64,000 nt of DNA, taken from positions 17,387 to 81,386 of the forward strand of contig OMOD01000002.1 in NCBI GenBank assembly GCA_900290255.1, read 5' to 3'. Positions 35,379-49,725 of this stretch are shown here, piece by piece. Below the pieces are notes generated by a model. It saw nothing but the letters and a program-made list of their open reading frames with translations, ran no database searches and was not told the origin of the DNA. Source of the stretch: Candidatus Sulfotelmatobacter kueseliae. GTDB lineage: Bacteria; Acidobacteriota; Terriglobia; Terriglobales; Acidobacteriaceae. Position 1 is the stretch's first letter. Every line of letters begins with the position of its first letter. Position numbers and translations under genes: made by a program.

Positions 35379-35393
35379 CTGCCGAACCGCCAG
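35379..35393. other. attL core, 15-bp direct repeat
   Basis: CTGCCGAACCGCCAG, identical to 45596-45610. The host side is to the left (35378 and below). It is read on the minus strand as Leu-Ala-Val-Arg-Gln codons of the split host gene. Confidence 0.85.
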
Positions 35394-35409
35394 CCAAAAT
35401 CGCTTCACA

Positions 35410-35439
35410 TTGAAAACAAACCAGTTACAATCGTTATCT
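35410..35439 (+). promoter_or_regulatory. Possible integrase promoter
   Basis: TTGAAA (35410-35415) lies 18 bp before TTATCT (35434-35439), about 55 bp upstream of the integrase ATG, just inside the element. The match is only moderate. Confidence 0.3.
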
Positions 35440-35495
35440 ATCCAACAACATCCCATTTATGGCATACTGACTTTGTACTGAGAAAGGAGCGGTCA

Positions 35496-36572
35496 ATGGG
35501 GCGCTACCAGCAAGGCTACCTTCGCAAGCGGTTCGGCGCATGGCACGTCTCGTACTACGTCACCGCCGATGGCCAGCGCAAGCTGAAGTCGCATCGCTTG
35601 TGCGCGGACTCGGAAACCGCATCTCAAGCCAAGAAACTCCGCGACGATTTCATGCGAGAGCAGGTCAACATTGGCGTGTCGAACGAAGGCCCAATGGGGG
35701 TGGTGGAGTTTTGGGAAATCTATTGGGACTTCATCCAAGACGGCAACCTGAAGCCGAGCACGATTCACGGCTACCGGCAGATCTGGAATCAACATCTAGC
35801 CCCTCATTTCGGCAGCACCATGCTGTCGGATTACAAGACGGCCACGATGACCAATTTCCTCACCGGGCTGGCAAAGACGCTCAGGCCGCGCACACTTGAC
35901 CGCATCAAATGGCTTGCATCTGCGATCTTCGCTCACGCGGTTGCAACCGGCCACTGTGAATCGAATCCTATCCGCGATGCCAAGGTGCTTGGCAAGACTC
36001 TGCCCAATGGCGTCACCGGCTTCTATTCGCTTGAGGAAATCGAGAACATCATCTCCGCTCTTGTAGACCATCCTGACGCGCAGTTGGTCATGGCTCTATC
36101 GTTCTTTGCGGGCCTGCGGAAAGGTGAGATTCAAGGCTTGCAATGGGGTGACGTTGACGCGGGCTTTATCCACGTTCGCCGCGCCTTCAGTCGCGGAGTG
36201 GTGAGCACTCCAAAATCATTGGACTCGATTAGAAGTGTTCCCATCATCGGGCCGGTAAAACTACTGTTGGGGTTGGTGCCTCACGATGGGGTTTGGATGT
36301 TCATCAACTCCGAAGGCAACGTTCGTGACATGGAACAACTGGCGCGGGATGTCATCGTTCCATGCCTGAAGAAAGCCGGTCTTGCTTGGCGCGGTTATCA
36401 TGCCGGACGGCGTGGCCTTGGCGATGCGCTCAAGCAACTCACAGGCTCATCTGATGCCGGACGCGATGTGCTTGGGCACTCAACATCAGATGTCACGCGG
36501 GATCATTACGAAGATAAGCAACGATCACGGATTGCCGCATTGAAGCTTTTGGATAGTTCCCTCAAGCAATAA
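35496..36572 (+). CDS. int: Tyrosine recombinase / integrase
   Basis: A 358-aa site-specific recombinase, presumably for integration and excision at the 15-bp core. ATG 35496 follows AAAGGAGC. It has an N-terminal Arm-type DNA-binding region (QGYLRKRFGAWHVSYYVTADGQRK), a core-binding domain (~60-160), and a catalytic domain with Arg208 (GLRKGEIQGL), His302-Arg305 (YHAGRRGLG), His328 (LGHS) and Tyr338 (DHYED): all conserved active-site residues. It starts 103 bp inside attL and reads into the element, the usual int position. Confidence 0.92.
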   Translation: MGRYQQGYLRKRFGAWHVSYYVTADGQRKLKSHRLCADSETASQAKKLRDDFMREQVNIGVSNEGPMGVVEFWEIYWDFIQDGNLKPSTIHGYRQIWNQHLAPHFGSTMLSDYKTATMTNFLTGLAKTLRPRTLDRIKWLASAIFAHAVATGHCESNPIRDAKVLGKTLPNGVTGFYSLEEIENIISALVDHPDAQLVMALSFFAGLRKGEIQGLQWGDVDAGFIHVRRAFSRGVVSTPKSLDSIRSVPIIGPVKLLLGLVPHDGVWMFINSEGNVRDMEQLARDVIVPCLKKAGLAWRGYHAGRRGLGDALKQLTGSSDAGRDVLGHSTSDVTRDHYEDKQRSRIAALKLLDSSLKQ

Positions 36573-36642
36573 ACGAGCCTGCAACGTGACGCAATCACGT
36601 TGCAAGCCCTAACCGAAAGTCGAGCACCAAGGATGCTCAACA

Positions 36643-36828
36643 ATGGCTGACAAACATGCTACATCGTTCGTGGAAAGCTTGGACGGAAATCAACGCAACG
36701 CATTACGAGTGATCCTGAGCTATGACAAAGGTTGCCGCGACTTGCGTACTGCGCTCAACTTAGCAAAGGTCACCCCATTGATGAAGATGTCAGAAAGACC
36801 GGGCTTGCAAAGCTTGGCCGCACAGTAG
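36643..36828 (+). CDS. Possible small protein, perhaps frameshifted
   Basis: A 61-aa frame starting MADKHATSFVESLDGNQRN, preceded by AAGGATG. From about 36765 the sequence reads more naturally in another frame (HPIDEDVRKTGLAKLGRTVE, to 36917), which hints at a one-base frameshift in a ~90-aa gene. I do not recognise the family. Confidence 0.3.
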   Translation: MADKHATSFVESLDGNQRNALRVILSYDKGCRDLRTALNLAKVTPLMKMSERPGLQSLAAQ

Positions 36829-36971
36829 AGTTGTTTCCCGACAACATGCGAAAACCTGAAACTTGCGATCTAAGGCCGGAAGGCTTGTCCATAGATGTCA
36901 CCCCGGAGTGGACGTAGACCGGCCCGCCTACCCACTTTCCTTGACCGGGCTGAGGCGATCTTGGCCGGTCA

Positions 36972-37007
36972 CCCCATCGCTAGGCAACGGGCCGCCTGAC
37001 GATGGGG
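36972..37007. repeat. CCCCATCG / CGATGGGG hairpin
   Basis: CCCCATCG (36972-36979) pairs with CGATGGGG (37000-37007) and is followed by ATTCTTATTT. It could be a terminator for int-side transcription, or a protein site. Confidence 0.5.
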
Positions 37008-37185
37008 ATTCTTATTTGTGGCACCGTGCTTCAGTGTGGGATAGCCGTGGGATAGTGCCTGCAAGTCATTCAATCAACGTGAGCTTCAATCCTGATACGG
37101 TTACATAAACCGCCGAAGACTATCCTGAAGTTAGGGGCGAAAGGGGCGAAGGGACCTGACGATTCGTATACCCAAGTGCAGGGCC

Positions 37186-37322
37186 GGTTCCGGTTCCCAC
37201 CCCTAAGTAGGGAACCGGGAACCACCTCTCCGATGGGTGAGTCGCCCTGGACGGCGAACTCACCCCCCATCGGTCTGAGGCCAACTGGTTCCCAAGTGGT
37301 TTTCATGGGAACCACGGGAACC
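37186..37322. repeat. GGGAACC/GGTTCCC iteron cluster, candidate replication origin
   Basis: Seven copies of GGGAACC or its complement start at 37186 (GGTTCC), 37192, 37210, 37217, 37287, 37307 and 37316. Two pairs form hairpins (GGTTCCC 37192 with GGGAACC 37210; 37287 with 37307). Between them lies a large palindrome (CCGATGGG 37230 to CCCATCGG 37266, with TGAGTCGCC/GGCGAACTCA inside). Confidence 0.6.
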
Positions 37323-37603
37323 ACTCCGGCACTCTTCCACAGATGTGCAAAATCTTGCTGTCTTTCCTAGTCCATCCGGCTTTAAGTTGTTTATAACCAT
37401 ATGGTAATCCACTTGCATCTAATCAAAGTGACGTGGCGACCGGACTCAATGAGCCGGACTCGCACGGGATGGCACCCAACGGGCGTAAGACCATCCCCCG
37501 CAAAAGGGCACGAAGGCTACCTTCCGCATCCATCGCGGAACACTAGGGCCAACCGAAAGCGCGGACCGTCAACAGGGGCTTAACAAGCTCACTCCACCCA
37601 AGG

Positions 37604-38353
37604 GTGAGCTACGTGTCCGCTTCACCACTCAAACACAATTGCCGGGTCACCGGGCTTGAACTCTGCTTCCGCACCGTAGGCGAACCCCCATCAATCCTGA
37701 AGTGTGCTCACGGTCTACCTCTTGGTGCTCACGATCTGAATGGCCGTGAGTATTGCATCGTCTGCCATTGGGATCACCACGAACGACGGCGCACCGACAG
37801 CTTGATGTATCGGGAGTGGCCGATTCTCGAACGGCGCACGGGGATCACTGAACACAATCCGCAAGGTGTGAAGTCACTGACCGCTCCGTTTGGAGTGGAG
37901 CGGTTCATCTCCCAAAGAGATTTCCGCCCTGATGTCTGGCCGGTACTCAGTTTCCTTGATGAGGATGTAAGAGACCTGAAAGATCGCAAGGCACCGCCAG
38001 AGCACTTAGCAATTCTCGGAACCAAGGTGCTTAGATCACTAGAGGATATCGAGACAGATTGCACTCCTGTGGTTGCGAAGGAAACGCGATGGGGGCGGCC
38101 CACAACGGATGAAGTTCCAGCGGAGTGGCGCGAGTCGTGGTGGCGCGAGTCATGGCAATGTGGACCGTGGAAACGTAAGCCGAGTAAACCGGATTGGGTC
38201 GCACCATCCTTCACGGTGATTCCGATTTTAGATCACTCGCAACCCCCTTGCCGGGTGCTCACGAACTATTGTCCGAACTGCGTTGATGAGTTTGGAATCA
38301 AGGGCCTGTACGTCACGCAGCACCACGTTTGTATCGCGGAGTGTGCGGCATGA
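37604..38353 (+). CDS. Element protein with two Cys-rich zinc motifs
   Basis: A ~249-aa protein I do not recognise. It has CAHGLPLGAHDLNGREYCIVCHWDHH near residues 34-60 and YCPNCVDEF...HHVCIAEC near the C-terminus, two likely zinc-binding sites. The middle is charged and Trp-rich (EWRESWWRESWQCGPW). The GTG at 37604 is chosen to keep the first Cys motif and is uncertain. Its TGA overlaps the next ATG (ATGA), so it is translationally coupled to the ATPase gene; a DNA-binding role in replication or control is inferred. Confidence 0.6.
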   Translation: MSYVSASPLKHNCRVTGLELCFRTVGEPPSILKCAHGLPLGAHDLNGREYCIVCHWDHHERRRTDSLMYREWPILERRTGITEHNPQGVKSLTAPFGVERFISQRDFRPDVWPVLSFLDEDVRDLKDRKAPPEHLAILGTKVLRSLEDIETDCTPVVAKETRWGRPTTDEVPAEWRESWWRESWQCGPWKRKPSKPDWVAPSFTVIPILDHSQPPCRVLTNYCPNCVDEFGIKGLYVTQHHVCIAECAA

Positions 38354-39843
38354 GCAACGTCACACATATTTATCCGAAGATGCCCTGCCGGATTGACCCT
38401 GATGATCCGCCCCAAAAGCGAATCTCCGAGGTGCCTTTGTGGGAAGTGTGGGATGAGTTGCGCGAGTCTACCTTCAGCGACGAACCGGGATTTCTCTATG
38501 TGGTGACGCATGATGGGTGGCAAGACACCATTGATGGGTTTCGCACGAAGCTACAAAAAGATGATGTGCAGATGAGCCGGGTGCAGTTTGCTCCTAACAT
38601 GAGTATTCCGCATGTAGTCACGAAAGACGGTAAGTCTCGCCGTATCGAAAAAGAGTTTCCCTTCAATCTCGGTGTGAAGGTTTGTGCCAGATGGATCATT
38701 GATTCTTACAACAACAAGACTGACACCCCCATTACAGCTTTGGCCCTGTGGCAACCGGAAATCGGGAAGGCCAGTAGTAGTGGCGACTATCTCAAGCACC
38801 TTCCGATGGTGGTGAAGCAATGTCCTGAACTGCCAATCTACATTTTCCATGACTATTACGTGGATAGGTACGGAGTTGTGCGGGAAGGCGGGCGCAAGGA
38901 AGATTACACCTTTTCGACACTGCCGGAAGATGAAGACGAAGACGTGCTGGAGCATCTGCTGGCGAAGTATGCCTTAACCATGATGCCCGCCCCATCGTAC
39001 ACCGGCAAAACCCATACTGCGATTTCGATGGGGTTGTCGTTGGTCACGGGGAAAGATTGGCTTGGCAAGTTCAAAGTCCCGGAGCCGGTGAAGGTCCGTT
39101 ATTTCGTGCCTGAACTCAGCGCGGGTCGGTTCAAGAAGTTCATGCTCCGCATAGCTACACCGGAAACGTGGAAGTCACATGAAGATAGCTTTATCGTGCG
39201 GCCTTTGGATTGTGACCTGCTGCTTCTCGATAGTGAAGAGATGATCGAGAAGTGCCGGGGCTTCTATGTGTTCCTAGATACTCTCGGCTACTTTATGGGA
39301 TCAGATGACACCAGCTCCTATGCTGAAGCAATCAAGTTTGCCAAGAGGATCAACCACCTCATCAAAGAGGGATGCTTGGGAGTGTGCGGCCTTTATCACC
39401 CGCCGAAGTATTCCAAGAACAGGAAAGAAACAGGGAACATCCTGACACTAGAGAATCAGATTTTAGGTTCGGCGGGCTTTGGCGGATTGTTGCGGTCATG
39501 TATTGCACTGCGAAACTTGAACCAAGATTCCAATGAAGGCTTGTGGTGCTATGTGCAGGGCCTGAAGAATCCGGGCCTTGGTAAGCCGTTTCAGATTCGC
39601 GGCTTCCCGATGGAATATCTCGGTGAGAGTCCTTATCTTTCGGAACTGCTCAAGAGTGGCAGTAAGAAAGATCAAGCCTTGGCAATGATAGCGGAAGGCA
39701 AGGGACGCCGTGAGATTTGTAAGACTCTGAAGATCGCGCCAAAAACATTGACGGCGTGGAAGCAAGAAGAGGAAGAGCTAGAGGAGCAACTGAACGAAGA
39801 TCAAGAAGAAATTTTCACCGGCACTATGCCAGAGGAGAACTGA
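38350..39843 (+). CDS. RepA-like AAA/RecA-fold ATPase with C-terminal HTH
   Basis: A 497-aa protein with a RecA-fold ATPase core like RepA/AAA_25 replication helicases. Walker A reads APSYTGKTHT with Gly219-Lys220-Thr221; Walker B reads GFYVFLDTLGYF with Asp310. A sensor-like segment (VCGLYHPPK) follows. The N-terminal ~200 residues show no clear primase motif. Residues ~440-475 form an HTH (EGKGRREICKTLKIAPKTL), and the acidic Glu-rich end follows. The coupling to the zinc protein upstream and the iteron cluster suggest element replication. The call is by motif, not search. Confidence 0.7.
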   Translation: MSNVTHIYPKMPCRIDPDDPPQKRISEVPLWEVWDELRESTFSDEPGFLYVVTHDGWQDTIDGFRTKLQKDDVQMSRVQFAPNMSIPHVVTKDGKSRRIEKEFPFNLGVKVCARWIIDSYNNKTDTPITALALWQPEIGKASSSGDYLKHLPMVVKQCPELPIYIFHDYYVDRYGVVREGGRKEDYTFSTLPEDEDEDVLEHLLAKYALTMMPAPSYTGKTHTAISMGLSLVTGKDWLGKFKVPEPVKVRYFVPELSAGRFKKFMLRIATPETWKSHEDSFIVRPLDCDLLLLDSEEMIEKCRGFYVFLDTLGYFMGSDDTSSYAEAIKFAKRINHLIKEGCLGVCGLYHPPKYSKNRKETGNILTLENQILGSAGFGGLLRSCIALRNLNQDSNEGLWCYVQGLKNPGLGKPFQIRGFPMEYLGESPYLSELLKSGSKKDQALAMIAEGKGRREICKTLKIAPKTLTAWKQEEEELEEQLNEDQEEIFTGTMPEEN

Positions 39844-39845
39844 AC

Positions 39846-40271
39846 ATGAATAACACCGAAGATACAAAATCACCGGAACTGGTGGAGCAGAAATTTGCCT
39901 CTCCGGTGTACGACCAATTTGCGGCGATCACAGGCGACCTAACAACTGATGCCCGCATGATGCGAGTTATGCGGGTATTGCGAAAAGAGCCATTGACCGA
40001 AGGTGCTCTTGCCTGTTGGGTGGGAAGTAGAGTTTTTCTGCCCGATTGGGCACCGATGATCGCAAAGCTTGTTGAGCTTGGTTACGTCCGCACCGAGCCA
40101 GCAAAAAAGGGTCTAAGCAGGGTCATTCATCTTGAAGAAAAAGGTGAGCAATTCCTGCACGACCGGCTTGACCCGAAACCACCACAGCCTGTGCCGGATG
40201 CGGAAAAGCCGGGTGCGGCTTTTGAACGTGCACATCTGGAAGTGACAGGCAAACCTTTTTCCACGGAGTAA
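39846..40271 (+). CDS. Winged-helix DNA-binding protein, putative
   Basis: A 141-aa protein starting at ATG 39846, after GAGGAGAACTGAAC. Residues ~40-100 look like a winged helix (LRKEPLTEGALACWVGSRVFLPDWAPMIAKLVELGYVRTEPAKKG), a marR/archaeal-like layout. The N-terminus is charged and the C-terminus Pro-rich. No family name can be given. A role as element regulator is inferred from context. Confidence 0.5.
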   Translation: MNNTEDTKSPELVEQKFASPVYDQFAAITGDLTTDARMMRVMRVLRKEPLTEGALACWVGSRVFLPDWAPMIAKLVELGYVRTEPAKKGLSRVIHLEEKGEQFLHDRLDPKPPQPVPDAEKPGAAFERAHLEVTGKPFSTE

Positions 40272-40277
40272 CGGGCC

Positions 40278-40478
40278 ATGTGTGAAATCTTGACGGTTGA
40301 TGAGTTGGCCGCGTTACTGAAGATGACACGGCGACAAATCTATTCGATGACGGAGCAACGCACACGCAATGGGAACATGCGCGATCACCCGTTGCCCGTG
40401 CTCAGGATCAATGGAAATTTGCGTTTTTCACGACAAGCAGTGACCGAATGGTTGCAGAAACTGGAAAAAGCGGCATGA
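40278..40478 (+). CDS. HTH_17/AlpA-type DNA-binding protein (excisionase-like)
   Basis: A 66-aa protein with a MerR-like helix-turn-helix (ILTVDELAALLKMTRRQIYSM) and a wing (LRINGNLRFSRQAVTEWLQKL). Proteins of this size and fold in elements with tyrosine integrases are often excisionases or AlpA-like regulators. Its TGA overlaps the next ATG, so it is coupled to the TerS-like gene. Start ATG 40278. Confidence 0.75.
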   Translation: MCEILTVDELAALLKMTRRQIYSMTEQRTRNGNMRDHPLPVLRINGNLRFSRQAVTEWLQKLEKAA

Positions 40479-41026
40479 AAGATCATCTTCGCAACCTGCG
40501 CGGGCCGATGCGCGAACGGCTGGAGAAACAAACATCCCGCAGAGAGGGTGTCGCAAAGATTCTGCGGGAGACTCCAAGTGCGACGGACCTTGAACTGGCT
40601 AAAGTTTTCGAGGTGAACCGGGACACCATTCATCGGGACAGGAAGTATCTTATGCAACAAGCAAACCAAAACGCGGTAAGCCAGTTTGAAATCTGGCGCG
40701 ATGAGCATATCGCGGAACTGAACAAGCTGCGCGAATCACTGGAAGATTTTCTCATCCCGCCCGAACGGCGAATTGAGTTGGCTTTGGCGATCATCAGGGA
40801 AGATGTCAAAGTCAAAGGCACTGCCGCGCCTACTCGCTCCGAAAATCTCAACGTCAATGCCGATGTGCAGGTCATCCCCATCGAAGAGCAGATTGAGTAC
40901 GCTAACGCCTTTGCCGGGTTGTATCCCGATGAACGCTATGAAGAGTTGGACCGGGTGAAGGCCCGCAAAAGAACCTGCCGCGTGGTCATTGAAGGCGGGG
41001 GACCGCAGAAGAGGTTATCAGAATGA
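40475..41026 (+). CDS. HTH protein upstream of terL, putative terminase small subunit
   Basis: A 183-aa protein starting at ATG 40475 (ATGA overlap with the previous stop). Residues ~20-60 form a helix-turn-helix (GVAKILRETPSATDLELAKVFEVNRDTIHRDRKYL). The rest is helical and charged (IWRDEHIAELNKLRESLEDF), with a beta end. Position directly before and overlapping terL is the usual place of the small subunit, which binds packaging DNA. The family assignment is inference; another HTH regulator is possible. Confidence 0.6.
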   Translation: MKDHLRNLRGPMRERLEKQTSRREGVAKILRETPSATDLELAKVFEVNRDTIHRDRKYLMQQANQNAVSQFEIWRDEHIAELNKLRESLEDFLIPPERRIELALAIIREDVKVKGTAAPTRSENLNVNADVQVIPIEEQIEYANAFAGLYPDERYEELDRVKARKRTCRVVIEGGGPQKRLSE

Positions 41027-42471
41027 CGTTACTGCAATTTTACGAAAAGCATAGGCCGCGCACCTATGAAACGAGTTTCCATCATCACCAAATTTGTCAT
41101 GTGGTGGAGCGCTGCTATCGGGAGCGCAAGCACGGCATCGTGGAAGTCCCGCCCCGGCATGGCAAATCGGAAATCATCAATGTTTACGCGCCAGCTTGGT
41201 GGTTGCAGGAAGGTCACCATGACTCGCACTTCGGTCTTGTGTGCAACGGCCAAGACCTGGCCAACAAGTTTTGCCGCGCATCGCGCAATCTTTGCAAACT
41301 GCCGGTAAGCCCGGATCACACTTCCGAATGGAAGCTGACTTCGGATAAATCTCTCGATTGGACGTATCGCGGAACGGGCATCAATGGGAGTCTGGCGGGT
41401 TTCGGCTATTCGGAAATGTCGTTTGACGATCTATTTAAGAGCGGACTTGAGGCGAAGTCCGAAGTCAAGCGGAATTCCATCATTGATGGAGTGGTTAGCG
41501 CGGCCATGAACAGGCTGACCCCGGACGGAATTGTTCTCGCAACTCAGGCAAGACTCCACCCATCGGACACAATTGGATGGCTGCTATCAAGCGAAGAACG
41601 GCAATTCCTGCGGCTCCACTTACCCGCCGTGAATGAGAGCGGTCGGGATGCTTGGTTTGAAGATCAGTATTCGGGCGAAAAGATTGTCTTTGACGCATAC
41701 GATGCGCTCTGGCCGTCCCGCTATGGCCCAAAGCAACTCAAGGCGATCTATGACCGCATCACCAGCTATTACTGGATGGCCCAATTCCAGCAAGTCCCAT
41801 CACTTGGAGATTTAAGTTACTTCGATGTGTCGGTGATGCCGCGTTATTCGATGCTTGGCACCATTGAGCGACTGTGGATTGCGGTGGATGCCGCGCAAGG
41901 TGAGACTGAGCACGGAGCCTATACCGCGTTTGTGACTCTCGCGCAATGCCCCGATGGGGGGAACCATCTCAAGGTGCTCAACGTGAAACGCGGGCGCTGG
42001 CGTCCCGACATTATCTCGGCAAACCTGATTGATTACTACACCGCCATGCAACGGCGGTACGGTGTCTATCCCGAAGCGGTTTGCGTGGAACGTGCAGCCG
42101 CAGGCTTTGGCTTGCTCAACCTGCCGATGCCGATTGTGCCGATGATTCCGAAAGGCAGTAAAGAAGAAAGAGCGGGCGCGACTTGCTGGTTGGTCAATCG
42201 CGGATTGGTGCAACTGCCGGTTGAGGCTCCTTGGTTAAAGGAATTTGAGGATGAGTTATCAAACTTCCCATTGACCACCTACAAAGATCAGGTTGATGCG
42301 TTTGTGCATGGGTTGTCTTGGGAGTTGCGGAAGGCCGTGGATTTTGAGCCTCACATGATGGAGCAATATGCCCTGCAACATCCCAACCCCCATCAGGAGC
42401 AGTTGGCCGAGTACAACGATGTGATGGGAGAAGTCATGTGGCAGGACGAATTTGGACATCTCGATTTCTAA
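41023..42471 (+). CDS. terL: Large terminase subunit (ATPase and nuclease)
   Basis: TerL pumps viral DNA into proheads and cuts it. The 482-aa product shows a Walker A-like loop VPPRHGKSE at residues 42-50, WWLQEGHHDSHFGLVCNGQDLANKF, a Walker B-like segment EMSFDDLF (Asp135-Asp136), and the RuvC-like nuclease domain with Asp289 (IAVDAAQG), AVCVERAAAGFG and Asp425 (YKDQVDAF). It looks complete and intact. It starts with ATGA overlapping the TerS-like gene. No portal gene follows, which is unusual for a prophage. Confidence 0.88.
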   Translation: MTLLQFYEKHRPRTYETSFHHHQICHVVERCYRERKHGIVEVPPRHGKSEIINVYAPAWWLQEGHHDSHFGLVCNGQDLANKFCRASRNLCKLPVSPDHTSEWKLTSDKSLDWTYRGTGINGSLAGFGYSEMSFDDLFKSGLEAKSEVKRNSIIDGVVSAAMNRLTPDGIVLATQARLHPSDTIGWLLSSEERQFLRLHLPAVNESGRDAWFEDQYSGEKIVFDAYDALWPSRYGPKQLKAIYDRITSYYWMAQFQQVPSLGDLSYFDVSVMPRYSMLGTIERLWIAVDAAQGETEHGAYTAFVTLAQCPDGGNHLKVLNVKRGRWRPDIISANLIDYYTAMQRRYGVYPEAVCVERAAAGFGLLNLPMPIVPMIPKGSKEERAGATCWLVNRGLVQLPVEAPWLKEFEDELSNFPLTTYKDQVDAFVHGLSWELRKAVDFEPHMMEQYALQHPNPHQEQLAEYNDVMGEVMWQDEFGHLDF

Positions 42472-42480
42472 GAAGGGACT

Positions 42481-42744
42481 ATGAACTTCGTTCAGAAAAG
42501 CATTCAACGAACCCGCGAGACATTCCGCGAGATGCAACGGCAAGCGGCTATTTGGCGCAAGCGGCGCAGGGAAGCGGAAGAGAAAAACAATGCCGCTTTG
42601 GAGTTGCTGCTTGATGATATTCGGCAGGAAATCGGCTTGCCTCTGACGGAAAAGAATTTGCCGACCTACATGCTTTTTGTGCAGGGTTACCTGCGAGATA
42701 GGCAACAAAAAGAAGATGAGTGGGACGGCGAAGATTTTTTGTAG
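42481..42744 (+). CDS. Small helical charged protein
   Basis: An 87-aa protein, strongly helical and basic in the first half (QKSIQRTRETFREMQRQAAIWRKRRREAEEKN), then LLDDIRQEIGLPLTEKNLP and a final acidic patch DEWDGEDFL. I do not recognise it. It starts 10 nt after terL and could be a packaging accessory protein. Confidence 0.5.
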   Translation: MNFVQKSIQRTRETFREMQRQAAIWRKRRREAEEKNNAALELLLDDIRQEIGLPLTEKNLPTYMLFVQGYLRDRQQKEDEWDGEDFL

Positions 42745-42768
42745 AGCGACCAAGAAAAGGAGATTCAC

Positions 42769-43038
42769 ATGGAAATCACAGAAGTTGATCCGAAACTGAT
42801 AGACGAATCGAAGGCCATCAAAACGAAGGCTCTCGAAAACATCAACGAAGCTTTTGACCCCGGTTGGTCTAGCGACCAGCACCGAGCCAAAGCGCGGGAG
42901 CACGATCTGAAGGCCGACAAGTTAGTAAGTGGCGATGAAAAAGATTCGCACATCACTGCAAGCCGAGCACACAACCGGGCAGCGGACGCCATAGATGCTG
43001 CGACCAAAGCATCGGCCAAGTGCGCTGCACTCGATTAA
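42769..43038 (+). CDS. Small helical protein of unknown function
   Basis: An 89-aa protein starting at ATG 42769, after AAAAGGAG. It is helical and charged (IDESKAIKTKALENINEAF, HITASRAHNRAADAIDAATKASAKC). No family is recognised. It lies between the terminase block and the hairpin/GGCNN region. Confidence 0.5.
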   Translation: MEITEVDPKLIDESKAIKTKALENINEAFDPGWSSDQHRAKAREHDLKADKLVSGDEKDSHITASRAHNRAADAIDAATKASAKCAALD

Positions 43039-43085
43039 ACAAGTTTCCTCCAGCAACTCTTGCCGGGGTTGCTGCGGCAGGGGAA

Positions 43086-43116
43086 CCTGATGGGGGTCTA
43101 ACCAACCCCCATCAGG
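43086..43116. repeat. GATGGGGG hairpin with 12-bp stem
   Basis: CCTGATGGGGGT (43086-43097), loop CTAACCA, ACCCCCATCAGG (43105-43116) form a perfect 12-bp stem. AT-rich sequence follows (ATTTTCAAAAAGTTTT), so it may act as a terminator, but the T tract is weak. Confidence 0.7.
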
Positions 43117-43137
43117 ATTTTCAAAAAGTTTTAACAG

Positions 43138-43222
43138 GGCGTGGCTCGGCTCGGCTTGGCGTGGCGAGGCTCGGCTCGGCGAGGCTCGGCTCGGCGTGGC
43201 GAGGCTTGGCAAGGCAAGGCTA
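43138..43222. repeat. (GGCNN)17 pentamer tract
   Basis: Seventeen consecutive in-phase pentamers, each GGC followed by GT, TC, TT, GA, AA or TA, with no break over 85 bp. GGC is invariant and only the last two bases vary. It is noncoding and sits between a hairpin and the next gene. Confidence 0.9.
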
Positions 43223-43335
43223 GCTTTGAATTTCAGGCCAACTTTTAAAAAAAGAAAAGTGCCTGAAACGTCAGTGGAACCTGGCGGCTAGGAAATGTTT
43301 CCAGTAACAAAATCGTTTCACCGTAGGAGAATTTT

Positions 43336-44007
43336 ATGGGAGCACGAAACTTAGGCACCACCAGCGAAACACCGTCGCGGCCCGGAGTCTCCGGGTCAAA
43401 ATCGCAACCATCCAAAGAAGATTCCCACAATTTTGCGAATCTCATTGGGCAAACCACCGACCCGGCAGTCATCACTCTTGATGGGGGGAAGGCACAGAAG
43501 AAAGTTCTTGCCGATGTCGCCCGCGTAAATGAAGCCAACCGCAAGAAACGCGGCCCTGAAGCCGGTTGGCGCGATGAACTGGCAACTCTTGAGCGCACGG
43601 TAGGAAATTCTTGGACGGAAGAACAGGCGCGACAAAATTCCGATGCCACCGAACGCGCACAAAATGAAATCGTGCGCGGCATAGAAAAGGAAATCGCGGA
43701 ACTCCGCGAACTTCAGTCAACTCCGTACTTAGGTCCGGCTGAAAAGCAGGCACTCGCCAAGAACCTTGAGCGGGCGGAATGGAATCTGGCGGAAGCCAAA
43801 GTCGAGAAGCAACGAAAAATCAGGCAAGCCGGGAGTGCCGTGACAAGCTCGAAAGAACGTGACCGCTTGCGTCCGCGTCTCCGCGAATTGCGAGAACGGG
43901 AAATGCGAATTAGCGCGGCCACGGCAAAAGTTCGTGAAGCAACCGATGGGGGTGCCACCAGCGGCCGGTTGGGTTTCACCGGCTTGCAGCCACTGTCGGA
44001 AAAATAA
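43336..44007 (+). CDS. Coiled-coil-rich protein of unknown function
   Basis: A 223-aa protein starting after GTAGGAGAATTTT. The N-terminus (~40 aa) is Ser/Pro/Gly-rich and disordered. Residues ~95-205 are heavily charged and helical (EKEIAELRELQSTPYLG, AEWNLAEAKVEKQRK, RPRLRELREREMRI), probably a coiled coil. No family is recognised. In phage-like elements such proteins can be scaffolding-like, but that is speculation. Confidence 0.55.
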   Translation: MGARNLGTTSETPSRPGVSGSKSQPSKEDSHNFANLIGQTTDPAVITLDGGKAQKKVLADVARVNEANRKKRGPEAGWRDELATLERTVGNSWTEEQARQNSDATERAQNEIVRGIEKEIAELRELQSTPYLGPAEKQALAKNLERAEWNLAEAKVEKQRKIRQAGSAVTSSKERDRLRPRLRELREREMRISAATAKVREATDGGATSGRLGFTGLQPLSEK

Positions 44008-44371
44008 AACGAGATTCCAACCGTGCTGACAGTCACGGTTGGATAGGGGCGGGCCTTATCAGCCGCATTGACGTGGATTGCCGGTTTCCTGCGGAGACCC
44101 CGAAAGACCGGCATATTTTGAGTTTGCCCGTGTCGTCGAGAGAGTAATCTCCGACGCTTTCTTCATGGCGGGCCGGACGCGAAATTAACGCGGGCAATTT
44201 CCTTATCCGGCAGGCTGGTGACTAACCTCTGGCGAGGAAATCAGTCACGGGGCTATCGTCGCGCCACCTTGATTAAGATGACGATGCGCCGAGCAACATT
44301 CTCGGCAATCGCGATGGGGTTGGACCACCTCCTTCCGGCCTGGCCCCATCGCTAATTTTTGGAGTCATCAT
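44008..44371. other. 364-bp noncoding stretch rich in stem-loops
   Basis: Perfect or near-perfect inverted repeats follow each other: TCCAACCGTG (44016-44025) with CACGGTTGGA (44034-44043); TGCCGGT near 44073 with ACCGGCA near 44107; GTGACT with nested CCTC/GAGG and AGTCAC around 44217-44258; GCGATGGGG (44311-44319) with CCCCATCGC (44344-44352), followed by TAATTTTT, a terminator-like end. No gene is visible. An RNA, a packaging site or an origin are possible. Confidence 0.6.
44311..44360 (+). terminator. GCGATGGGG/CCCCATCGC hairpin with T tract
   Basis: A perfect 9-bp stem with a 24-nt loop, followed by TAATTTTTGG. It lies directly before the 68-aa gene. Confidence 0.5.
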
Positions 44372-44578
44372 ATGTCAATAGAACGCATGGCAATTATGGA
44401 TCATAACCGGCGATTTTTTAGCAGTATCGAGCCGTTCATCACGCGCGGTAAGAAGGTGCAAATTCAAAGAGCCGGGTCACATTACAAGGCCCGCTTCTGT
44501 GGCCACAAGAATTTCGTGTTTGGCAGGTCACCGCAAGAAGCGGCAAAGAATCTGAAAAATTGGAGTGAAACAACATGA
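44372..44578 (+). CDS. Small element protein
   Basis: A 68-aa protein (FFSSIEPFITRGKKVQIQRA, HYKARFCGHKNFVFGRSPQE) of mixed alpha/beta look. It overlaps the next gene by ATGA (44575). No family is recognised. Confidence 0.5.
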   Translation: MSIERMAIMDHNRRFFSSIEPFITRGKKVQIQRAGSHYKARFCGHKNFVFGRSPQEAAKNLKNWSETT

Positions 44579-44799
44579 GAAAAATCAGGATTAACATTCA
44601 CACCGGCTGCCCATCGTTGCAATGTCCGGGCGAGAGCTTCAGCGCGGAATTGACTGTTCCGGCCACATACCTTGATGGGGATTCCATCAAGCTGCGGGAA
44701 CTCGAAAAACAACTCGCAACCTGCAATGGGTGCAGCGTCATCTGCGTCATGCCCGAAGAAAACCCCATCAAGATTGTTGTGGAGGGCGTCAATGTTTGA
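44575..44799 (+). CDS. Small Cys-containing element protein
   Basis: A 74-aa protein with CPSLQCPG near residue 12 and CNGCSVICVMPEE near residue 49; the cysteines could bind zinc. The 10-bp inverted pair CTTGATGGGG (44671-44680) and CCCCATCAAG (44763-44772) lies in the coding region. It overlaps the previous gene by ATGA and the next by 8 nt. Function unknown. Confidence 0.5.
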   Translation: MRKIRINIHTGCPSLQCPGESFSAELTVPATYLDGDSIKLRELEKQLATCNGCSVICVMPEENPIKIVVEGVNV

Positions 44800-44962
44800 A
44801 TCAAACGAGAAACTAGAAAAGCTCATCGGCCAAATGGCAACGATGATTGAACTGCAGATGTCGCTCTTGAAAAAATTAGAGCAACAAAACACTTCGCTCA
44901 GTGCCTTGACAAAGTTTGTCCGCGATAATTCCGGCGCCTCACCCGCGTGTGGTGCCGTATGA
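44792..44962 (+). CDS. Small coiled-coil protein
   Basis: A 56-aa protein starting at ATG 44792, with one long amphipathic helix (EKLEKLIGQMATMIELQMSL). It overlaps its neighbours at both ends (8 nt upstream, ATGA downstream). It may oligomerise. No family is recognised. Confidence 0.5.
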   Translation: MFESNEKLEKLIGQMATMIELQMSLLKKLEQQNTSLSALTKFVRDNSGASPACGAV

Positions 44963-45138
44963 AAAAGTGGTGCGCCTACTGCGGAAGTCACGAACACAAT
45001 ATTGAGTTCTGTTCTAAGACTTGGGAAGGGCAGGACAATCTTGCAAAGCGATATTGTCAGTATTGTGGTTCCAAGGAACACAACATTGAATTTTGCCTTA
45101 AGACTTGGCAGGGTCAAATCAATTTGAGGAATTGTTAG
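44959..45138 (+). CDS. Tandem CCHC zinc-knuckle protein
   Basis: A 59-aa protein composed of two near-identical units of about 24-26 residues: CAYCGSHEHNIEFCSKTW and CQYCGSKEHNIEFCLKTW. Each fits CX2CX4HX4C, the zinc-knuckle spacing known from retroviral nucleocapsid and cellular RNA-binding proteins. It therefore probably binds single-stranded nucleic acid. The units appear to be a recent internal duplication. It is coupled to the previous gene by ATGA. Role in the element is unknown. Confidence 0.7.
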   Translation: MKKWCAYCGSHEHNIEFCSKTWEGQDNLAKRYCQYCGSKEHNIEFCLKTWQGQINLRNC

Positions 45139-45277
45139 CTTGGTGGTTTGATTCCCCTCAACACCAGCCCTTGAGTGCAGGGAAACCTGCGGGCACGGCA
45201 ACCAATGGGGGTCTTACTGCCTGCCGTGGATACCACCGGGCCAGCGGAATCCAAACTCCAAGGCCCGGTGCCCCGGC

Positions 45278-45427
45278 TCACTTCGATTTCTTCTCCATCA
45301 TGTTTAGGTACGCTCTGATTTCCAACAATTTCATTTGCAACTTTCCCAAATCTTCCTTCGCATTGTTGCAGTGCGTTTCGATCACATGTAAGTCCTTCCG
45401 CAGTTCTTCAATTTCGTGCGGCTCCAT
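45278..45427 (-). CDS. 49-aa helical protein at the right end of the element
   Basis: A minus-strand reading frame, ATG at 45427 with AAAGGAGC upstream (CTGAAAGGAGCAAGT), ending in TGA at 45278-45280. It reads MEPHEIEELRKDLHVIETHC, then NNAKEDLGKLQMKLLEIRAY and LNMMEKKSK, an amphipathic helix with heptad-like Leu spacing. It is the only minus-strand gene in the element. No family is recognised; a small regulator or antirepressor-like role is speculation. Confidence 0.55.
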   Translation of the reverse strand: MEPHEIEELRKDLHVIETHCNNAKEDLGKLQMKLLEIRAYLNMMEKKSK

Positions 45428-45568
45428 ACTTGCTCCTTTCAGTTAATAATCCCCATCAATTCAGTAGACATATCCCACACCCATCCCACGGAGTATAACG
45501 GACAGGTTGTTGATTCGCGGTAAACCCTTTCCCCTCAACTCCCGCACAGTCCGTCACATTCCCTATAA

Positions 45569-46231
45569 CTACATTGTTTTCAACGGCTTGCCCGTCTGCC
45601 GAACCGCCAGGGCGAAGTCGCGGAAACTGACCCGCGACTTCCCGCCCACGACGGAATCTTGCCGGAAAGCGGAAAGCTGTTGCGCGGAGAGCAAGACGCG
45701 GCCTCGAGGATCGACGGCGAAGCGGCCCAGCGGTCCACCGACGCAACTGGTCAGCCCAAGCTTGCTCGGCGGATAAAGAAAAAGAAGGGCTCGCTCGCCG
45801 ATGCGATAGCGCTGTCCGCTCGACCACAGACCCATCCATTGCATGACGGTCAAATCCTCGCCGGGCGTGGCTCCACGGATGGAGTTCTCCACGCGAAACG
45901 TGATGGCGACGGTTTCGAAGGCCTGCCCGCTGGTTGCGGGACGGCGCGCGATGCCGGTGACCGTGGCGGAGAAAATCATCCCTGCGGAACGCGCCAGCCA
46001 AGGCAGATCGAACGTGCCGGGAGCCGCCGCCGGCCCGTGTGGCCACGGAGAGATCGGCCACGGATGGATTGGCCCTGCGCGGGGAAACTGAACCACGTGC
46101 TGTGGGGCGAACGCGGAATCAGGAACGAGATCAGAAATGCGACTACCCTGATCCGACTGGGCTGGCAGAATTCCAGAGGGCAGAATCACGAACGACAAGG
46201 CGAGCAGCCACGAACAAGTGCTCCCGTGCAT
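45569..46231 (-). CDS. Secreted protein interrupted at its 3' end by the element
   Basis: A 220-aa protein with a signal peptide (CSWLLALSFVILPSGILPAQ). The body (VARSAGMIFSATVTGIARRP-like, VAITFRVENSIRG, GERALLFLYPPSKLGLTS) is beta-rich and of unknown fold. The last residues LAVRQ are encoded by attR and are followed by TGKPLKTM and TAG from the element. With attL restored the native end would be LAVRQ followed by AAGEEWTSTIRR and a TGA 2 nt before the pseudo-matrixin ATG. The two host genes therefore formed an operon. Confidence 0.7.
   Translation of the reverse strand: MHGSTCSWLLALSFVILPSGILPAQSDQGSRISDLVPDSAFAPQHVVQFPRAGPIHPWPISPWPHGPAAAPGTFDLPWLARSAGMIFSATVTGIARRPATSGQAFETVAITFRVENSIRGATPGEDLTVMQWMGLWSSGQRYRIGERALLFLYPPSKLGLTSCVGGPLGRFAVDPRGRVLLSAQQLSAFRQDSVVGGKSRVSFRDFALAVRQTGKPLKTM
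45596..45610. other. attR core, 15-bp direct repeat
   Basis: CTGCCGAACCGCCAG, identical to 35379-35393. The host side is to the right (45611 onward, in the body of the split gene). Confidence 0.85.
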
Positions 46232-48777: not shown

Positions 48778-49725
48778 CTAGCTTGCCGCCAGCAACTCAC
48801 CAATCGACCAAACGTGATCGGCCAGATCCGCTTCCATAGCGGGCGTAACTCTGAGGCTGGAATGGACGCGGCAGAAATTGTACCAGCACATAAAAAGCGT
48901 TACGGCATGTTTCAGATTCTCCAATTTTCGACTGTGAGCGTTCGTCAAACGGCAAAACCGCTTGAGATGTACGCGCAAGCTCAAGTTGGCTCTCTCGATG
49001 TGCGAAGTCGAGATGTAACGCGGATCGGGTCTGCCATTCATGACTTTTGGGACCGTCCCAATCACCTGACTAGTCGTGCCGTACCAGTCGGGTCCAGTAA
49101 TATCGCGGGAACCGAAAAGTTTAATCAGCATGGCGTAATCGCACTGCGCTCCAAGGTATTCATCCACGGCGGGCGAGTACCAGCGCAGCGCGTCTGTCGT
49201 AAGCTGAAATCGTCCTTCCACTCGCTGACTCAGATCACGGATGAAGCTGTGTGCGCTGTCACGGTCACGGCGGCCAACGTGGTACGAGAGAACCATCTTG
49301 GTTTCGCTGTCGAGCGCAAACCATGTGTATTGATCGCCCCACTCTGCCGGAGCATCTTGGGGCAGTCTCTTTTGATGGCAGCCTACATACGTCCAGATTT
49401 CGTCAGCCTGGACGAGCCGAGTGTGGATGCCGCGAATGTAGGTGTCCCACAGCTTAGCGCACCTTTCGCCCGCTGTTTCGAGCAGGGAAAGAATTGTGTT
49501 CTTGTCTATGTCCGTCAGTCGGGCGATTGCACGAATGGACATTCCTTCGAGCATCATGGAAAGAATCTGCGCGGCCTTCTCAGGCGCGATGTAGTGGTTT
49601 CCGACCTTGCTGTGAGGCTCGCAGAATGTAGCTTTGCAGGATTGGCAGCGCCAGCGTTGAATGCGGCGCTTACCGAAGTAACCGAATCGCTTGCAGGTTT
49701 GGTGCTGGCATCTTTTGCACGTCAT
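48778..49725 (-). CDS. IS1-family-like transposase
   Basis: A 315-aa DDE transposase of IS1 type: N-terminal zinc ribbon CKRCQHQTCKRFGYFGKRR and CQSC, an HTH (MSIRAIARLTDIDKNTILSLL), then the catalytic triad by motif: Asp in VQADEIWTYVG, Asp in LTTDALRWY and Glu in HIERANLSLRVHL. It is full length and intact. No terminal inverted repeats or target duplication are evident at its flanks, so I cannot define an IS; it may be immobilised. Start ATG 49725. Confidence 0.8.
   Translation of the reverse strand: MTCKRCQHQTCKRFGYFGKRRIQRWRCQSCKATFCEPHSKVGNHYIAPEKAAQILSMMLEGMSIRAIARLTDIDKNTILSLLETAGERCAKLWDTYIRGIHTRLVQADEIWTYVGCHQKRLPQDAPAEWGDQYTWFALDSETKMVLSYHVGRRDRDSAHSFIRDLSQRVEGRFQLTTDALRWYSPAVDEYLGAQCDYAMLIKLFGSRDITGPDWYGTTSQVIGTVPKVMNGRPDPRYISTSHIERANLSLRVHLKRFCRLTNAHSRKLENLKHAVTLFMCWYNFCRVHSSLRVTPAMEADLADHVWSIGELLAAS

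Follow-up and report, generated by a model that had tools for sequence, protein, structure and literature searches.

The window analyzed here, a stretch of 64,000 nucleotides from the genome of Candidatus Sulfotelmatobacter kueseliae (G000), carries an integrated element at 35379-45610 that is probably a phage satellite, one that supplies its own terminase to the particles of a helper phage, while two of its siblings would supply another single virion-assembly part. More tentatively, and with slightly less than even confidence, we suggest that the element belongs to a new lineage of Acidobacteriota satellites with an exchangeable slot, in which the element's own small terminase subunit (TerS) and one captured virion-assembly gene are put into helper particles, instead of building a capsid or merely redirecting the helper terminase. 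In the literature passages considered, satellites either borrow the large terminase (TerL) of the helper or bring a whole head. If our reading is true, it would show that a terminase can function with a portal of another origin, and portal-motor compatibility would become directly testable. A sequence-only reading of the window had already described an integrase at one end, a 15-bp repeat, a RepA-like ATPase, helix-turn-helix (HTH) proteins, a TerS-TerL pair and small proteins in this interval, all of which are in the sequence, and had proposed a satellite that packages itself with its own terminase. The satellite part of this proposal is strengthened, as relatives share the layout, have no recognized capsid genes, and present bounded ends and a conserved, monophyletic TerL. 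Packaging into helper particles we still infer, and the proposed iteron origin was not seen, as 36570-38360 holds only scattered repeat families of 2-3 copies each.

The sequence CTGCCGAACCGCCAG forms an exact 15-bp direct repeat at 35379-35393 and 45596-45610. Counted from att copy to att copy, the element measures 10,217 bp, and the right copy lies inside the 3' end of a host open reading frame (ORF) at 45569-46231 (minus strand). By itself, this repeat is weak evidence, as a competing 16-bp repeat (35369/47107) is also present. The ends of the element were settled by the empty site and not by the repeat as such. The right-hand host gene (query 45611-46231, minus strand) is present in 33 of 45 genus genomes, its own included, and for the test we considered the loci of the 11 best relatives among the genomes with this gene. 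In all 11 relatives fetched, the left-hand host gene directly adjoins the right-hand one on the same strand, and the junction alignments break at the position of the 15-bp repeat, ruling out the 16-bp repeat as att. The GC content is 0.53 within the element, as compared to 0.61 and 0.62 in the flanks. It should be noted that the source assembly comprises 198 contigs, with a contamination of 8.46%.

Relatives with an integrase and TerL in the same layout and no recognized capsid gene, for which the sequence-only reading had suggested searching other Acidobacteriota, were found. Together with the window, the family counts nine elements, namely L039 from the same genome (G000), L003 and L168 (G082, which is also G398), L041 and L148 (G216), L033 (G028), L213 (G239), and L004, an IMG/VR viral contig. 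TerS and TerL without a recognized capsid gene are found in seven of the nine. The integrases of the other eight score 92-336 bits against that of the window (358 aa, 35496-36572, plus strand), a tyrosine integrase matching phrog_1 (E 1.2e-44) and Phage_int_SAM_3. Six of these eight elements are bounded by tRNA repeats and measure 10.4-11.4 kb, or 17.4 kb for L039, with ends that are duplicated halves of tRNA genes. The repeats are exact in L148 (41 bp, tRNA-Arg), L033 (40 bp, tRNA-Ser), L168 (43 bp, tRNA-Ser) and L213 (39 bp, tRNA-Ser), and inexact in L039 (42/46, tRNA-Ser) and L041 (37/56, at a predicted tRNA-SeC). As a side observation, the att repeats of L148, L033, L003, L168 and L213 span the 5' half of the tRNA genes and not the 3' end. 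With the empty site, the tRNA repeats of six relatives and no portal or capsid recognized, what was found is a bounded integrative element without a full virion gene set, as is characteristic of a phage satellite. The replication protein varies among the elements (AAA_25; Prim-Pol, D5_N and DUF5906; D5_N and DUF5906; DUF3854 and DUF5906; or DUF5906), and these modules of primase, D5 and AAA kinds were counted as support for the satellite reading, as was the restriction cargo of L039, a type IIG restriction enzyme.

The TerL of the window is a full 482-aa frame (41023-42471, plus strand) that matches phrog_38 with an E of 6.8e-63 and nothing in Pfam at E<=1. Residues K48, D135, D136, D289, E356, D422 and D425, which we take to be the Walker A lysine, the Walker B acids and the nuclease acids, are invariant in all seven family TerLs, in line with the earlier claim of an intact TerL with its active-site residues. 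Of 50,697 phage records, 1,042 matched, all of them below 60% identity, with 28.7% as the best of 25 listed, while the best plasmid identity was 27.7% among 15 listed of 77, and a search of solved structures with the TerL profile returned nothing at E<=0.001. Two TerLs are 80% identical to that of the window, one in L003, from an acidobacterial genome, and one in the IMG/VR contig L004; IMG/VR scans with the TerLs of L039, L033, L148 and L041 and with the TerS of L003 yielded no relative. Between L003 and L004, dS (synonymous) is 0.83 and dN (non-synonymous) 0.08, and between the window TerL and either of them synonymous change is saturated (pS 0.76-0.78) with a pN of 0.14. In a maximum-likelihood tree of 69 TerLs, those of the seven family elements group as a single clade (support 98/95; recovered in 98% of 200 bootstrap trees). 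This clade also includes a broken fragment from G055, and 36 TerLs of viral contigs and 24 further acidobacterial ones fall outside it. The tree includes 36 of 72 new IMG/VR loci and omits the acidobacterial L149, L153, L154, L158, L160 and L165, as these were short, split, without a clean ORF or very distant.

Within the genomes sampled, the elements are rare and restricted to a single bacterial family. The TerS profile matched 5 of 398 family genomes (G000, G082, G216, G028 and G239) and, in the genus of G028, 2 of 24 genomes once a false match, a response regulator in G269, had been removed. The TerL profile matched 8 of the 45 genus genomes, of which G000, G082 and G216 carry family elements, while the other five comprise L035, L042, L163 and L164, all outside the clade, and G260, unplaced in the tree. 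In a draw of 396 genomes across the phylum, TerL matches at family strength were found in the source genome only. Of the matches outside the source genome (L194-L200), two were read in detail, namely L194, a phage, and L196, a methylase-TerS-TerL-recombinase locus.

Two siblings carry TerS without TerL. L168 (L168:9743-20227, G398:C4) lies inside its 43-bp tRNA-Ser repeat and encodes an integrase, an AAA_25 protein, a winged-HTH-like protein, TerS, homologs of the window proteins B, C and D, and a 711-aa tape-measure-like protein (best E to such families 6.4e-11). Among the genus genomes, the latter matched G082 itself and, weakly, G260. L213 (L213:233-10956, G239:C104), inside its 39-bp tRNA-Ser repeat, encodes an integrase, a possible AAA protein, TerS and a protein matching the head maturation protease phrog_15531 (E 4e-12); its integrase and TerS match the family, and its C-, D- and E-like proteins are assigned by place only. 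Each of the nine elements thus combines a TerS-like gene with one recognized virion-assembly gene. In seven this is TerL, in L168 it is the tape-measure-like gene and in L213 the head-maturation-protease-like gene; with a single case for each of the latter two, the distribution should be taken as a lead and not as a rule. As the siblings carry a tape-measure-like or a head-protease-like gene, the family appears to handle virion assembly, and these siblings suggest that exchanging just one part of the virion may be a general strategy of parasitism.

The TerS-like protein of the window (40475-41026, plus strand; the start may be 40448) overlaps TerL, has homologs in L004, L039 and L003, and shows only weak HTH matches in Pfam and PHROG. 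Its name is based on gene position, on the TerS of relatives, which match phrog_645 (labelled 'Rnase E', E 2.4e-17) and phrog_309 ('terminase small subunit', E 1.2e-4), and on the pattern of exchange between its two parts, which we compared after splitting the proteins at a conserved G-x-x-A-P. Among the three elements with TerL identities of 80-86%, the C-terminal parts of TerS are 62-76% identical and the N-terminal parts 23-36%. For L148 and L003, the N-terminal parts are 84% identical, the C-terminal parts 27% and the TerLs 25%, and for the window and L039, the respective values are 44%, 28% and 29%. The C-terminal alignment of the window with L148 gives 44% over 34 residues only, with a negative score. 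As indirect evidence, this pattern fits a TerS in which the DNA-recognition half is exchanged and the half contacting TerL remains paired with its motor, as would be expected from a working packaging pair. An AlphaFold2 (AF2) model of TerS, with a mean predicted local distance difference test (pLDDT) of 70.5, presents an HTH and helices.

No portal, capsid or tail gene was recognized in the window element by Pfam, PHROG and further profile matches, in agreement with the sequence-only reading. A 'tail fiber assembly' match (E 0.0019) on the 89-aa protein and a 'baseplate' match (E 0.14) on a 61-aa ORF were judged to be chance. The longest plus-strand ORF after TerL within the element is 223 aa, while antisense frames of up to 239 aa are present. 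A hidden capsid or portal in the window element was rejected, given that all its plus-strand ORFs after TerL are <=223 aa and that protein C is helical and, in a structure search against a viral library, unmatched at E<=0.001. Structure searches, a kind of check suggested earlier, covered two proteins, TerS and protein C, with no significant match. For the family, we scanned 95 ORFs of >=90 aa from eight elements, that of the window included and L003 excepted, and found no capsid, portal or tail among 25 listed of 26 Pfam families or among 25 listed of 55 PHROGs. This set consists of greedy non-overlapping frames; some overlapping genes (e.g. the TerS of L168) and one ORF with X are missing from it. 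L003 contributed no ORF, its cargo having been inspected by eye and partially scanned.

The following course of events would account for these data. The integrase and the HTH_17 protein would excise the element, and the RepA-like module would replicate it. The element's TerS would then recognize its own packaging site and recruit its own TerL, which would dock on the portal of a helper procapsid and fill it with satellite DNA. The helper phage would provide head, tail and lysis, and the small proteins encoded downstream of TerL may adjust or divert the assembly of the helper; protein C, by a guess from its long predicted helices, could be a scaffold-like redirector.

Several points weigh against this reading and need to be considered. 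The helper, the particle and the excision are postulated from sequence, and a search of the host genome G000, where the sequence-only reading had suggested looking for a helper, returned nothing with the portal model PF04860 and the capsid model PF05065, although with these two models alone a resident helper may have escaped notice. The TerS model has no PDB match at E<=0.001, and the matches listed are HTH and TetR regulators. The family branches in the TerL tree are long and were flagged by the program. Integrases L004:1665-2870 and L148:3399-4607 read LGPAE where that of the window reads LRKGE, such that the first catalytic arginine may be missing. The repeat of L003 (22 and 19 bp around one mismatch, tRNA-Met; G398:C5:103756-151543, L003/L031/L166) encloses 47.7 kb, unlike a compact satellite, with TerS-TerL and many TIR-like and large NTPase-like genes; this stretch may be composite, as hinted by a second HTH_17 copy near its right end. 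L004 adjoins a larger phage-like region, so that its IMG/VR listing is no proof of encapsidation; the far end of L004 lies beyond its contig. In the adjoining region, a separate TerS, TerL, integrase and replication initiator are encoded; we do not claim it as a helper, as portal and capsid were unrecognized there.

Among the other explanations, an unlikely one that nonetheless fares best is that of a repurposed terminase, in which TerS-TerL serves as a decoy motor or nuclease against infecting phages, or resolves replication concatemers, and the element moves otherwise. The lack of a helper seen in the host with PF04860 and PF05065 would agree with this, as would the restriction or TIR-like defence genes of L039 and L003 and the TerLs of L036 and L196, found beside methylase and recombinase genes with no evident portal or capsid. 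However, the exchange of TerS N-terminal parts with a TerL-matched C-terminus fits packaging specificity, and the siblings carry other virion-assembly genes. Slightly less probable again is a decayed prophage, in which integrase and terminase are what is left after the loss of the structural genes. Integrase, TerS and TerL are indeed phage genes, and the broken TerL fragment of G055 falls within the clade. Yet diverged relatives share the layout and the small size, and TerL is conserved, the single clade of the family being distinct from phage TerLs; a lone broken prophage is disfavored by the common layout and the TerL tree. Relatives that are complete prophages, named in the sequence-only reading as what would speak against a satellite, were looked for and not found: portal and capsid were unrecognized in L003 (by eye and partial scans) and L004, both with 80% identical TerLs, and in the diverged L033, L039, L041 and L148. 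The least probable is that the element uses capsid genes located elsewhere on the host chromosome, in the style of a gene-transfer agent, which would suit carriers that keep TerL intact with no nearby head operon, but across five genomes or records PF04860 gave one sub-threshold match (G082) and PF05065 one match (G216:C21), with neither of these two models matching in G000, G028 or G399.

The satellite reading can be placed among known systems, here compared through passages of the cited papers. The element resembles phage-inducible chromosomal islands (PICIs) and Staphylococcus aureus pathogenicity islands (SaPIs) in being integrated and att-flanked, with a replication module, an AlpA-like HTH protein, its own TerS and accessory genes; by gene content and predicted function, it has the integrase, replication module and excision/AlpA-like regulator of a PICI. 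It differs from them in carrying TerL too. SaPIs are described as depending on the phage large terminase (PMC7567579), and PICIs as sometimes carrying terS, the word terL being absent from the paper in question (PMC6092414), which also counts phage-dependent induction and specific packaging among the defining PICI traits. Instead of packaging by the large terminase of a helper, the window element has its own intact TerL, which it would presumably use. Capsid-forming PICIs and Mulch/Flayer satellites likewise have their own TerS and TerL, and are reported to encode portal and major capsid as well (PMC10690885). Of the major capsid, protease, portal and connectors that accompany TerS/TerL in capsid-forming PICIs, portal and capsid were unrecognized in the window element and in the relatives scanned. 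P4 is similar in the Prim-Pol/D5-type replication protein of L003 and in the tRNA integration of relatives, yet P4 relies on the P2 terminase, acting at cos sites, to package its DNA, according to the same source (PMC10690885), whereas the window element has its own TerL. The RepA_N satellites of E. coli, also att-flanked and with a partial morphogenesis gene set, in some cases with tape-measure genes, present the converse layout, namely capsid and tape-measure genes without terminase genes, as described in passages of PMC10448857. By description, the PLE of Vibrio cholerae are similar in that satellite parts replace those of the helper, and the L168 sibling also has a tape-measure-like gene. 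For the mechanism proposed here, PLE tails offer a published precedent, in that components of the satellite take the place of those of the helper in a functional virion (PMC12987554). For AH14b, no terminase was identified according to the passages of PMC4936722, and further marine and soil satellites are named in a review (PMC11389934, in part). The earlier statement that the layout matches no named class agrees with our search: no satellite with TerL and without capsid was recognized in the titles and abstract openings of open-licence literature, a search that did not extend to the primary VEIME and tycheposon papers, and such a satellite may be in print. No paper on Acidobacteria and 'phage satellite' was found in the same literature.

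The remaining genes of the element are all on the plus strand. Between the integrase and TerS lie an unknown protein (249 aa, 37604-38353) with nothing in Pfam at E<=1, the RepA-like AAA_25 ATPase with a C-terminal HTH (38350-39843; AAA_25 E 9.2e-9), which is probably the replication protein, a winged-HTH-like protein (39840-40271; 96.7 bits to an L039 protein, with a weak Pfam match), and the excisionase/AlpA-like HTH_17 protein (40278-40478; HTH_17 E 2.6e-8, phrog_66 E 4.5e-5, 124.5 bits to the L039 copy). TerL is followed by protein A (87 aa, 42481-42744), positioned like the small proteins of relatives with no sequence match among those at E<=1, protein B (89 aa, 42769-43038; 44 bits to L039), the helical protein C (223 aa, 43336-44007; 57.7 bits to L004, long helices by AF2), protein D (68 aa, 44372-44578; 34 bits to L039, 15.5 bits to L148), protein E (44789-44962; 66.8 bits to L039), which is the C-terminal part of the ORF 44672-44962, and a 63-aa Cys/His-rich protein (44947-45138) with a weak HNH-like match (E 3e-4). 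Between proteins B and C, a repeat scan revealed a GC-rich tandem repeat of 5-bp units (43138-43222), and the same scan reported no such array in the other elements.

A few observations stand apart from the above. L148 has a second HTH_17 frame near its right end (L148:13663-13995, minus strand), scoring 78 bits to the HTH_17 protein of the window as compared to 48 bits for L148's own copy; this second frame is possibly a remnant of another element. At L036, L044 and L196, acidobacterial TerL genes are accompanied by methylase-like and recombinase-like genes (identified by eye in L036 and L196), with no portal or capsid evident nearby, which represents a different capsid-less terminase context. 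L037 and L038 (G072) are two closely similar TerS-TerL pairs in one genome, found beside DnaB-like and other small genes, with no portal-sized ORF right after TerL. To the right of the element, a separate low-GC stretch of the window contains a transposase-like ORF (48778-49725, minus strand), IS1-type by eye.

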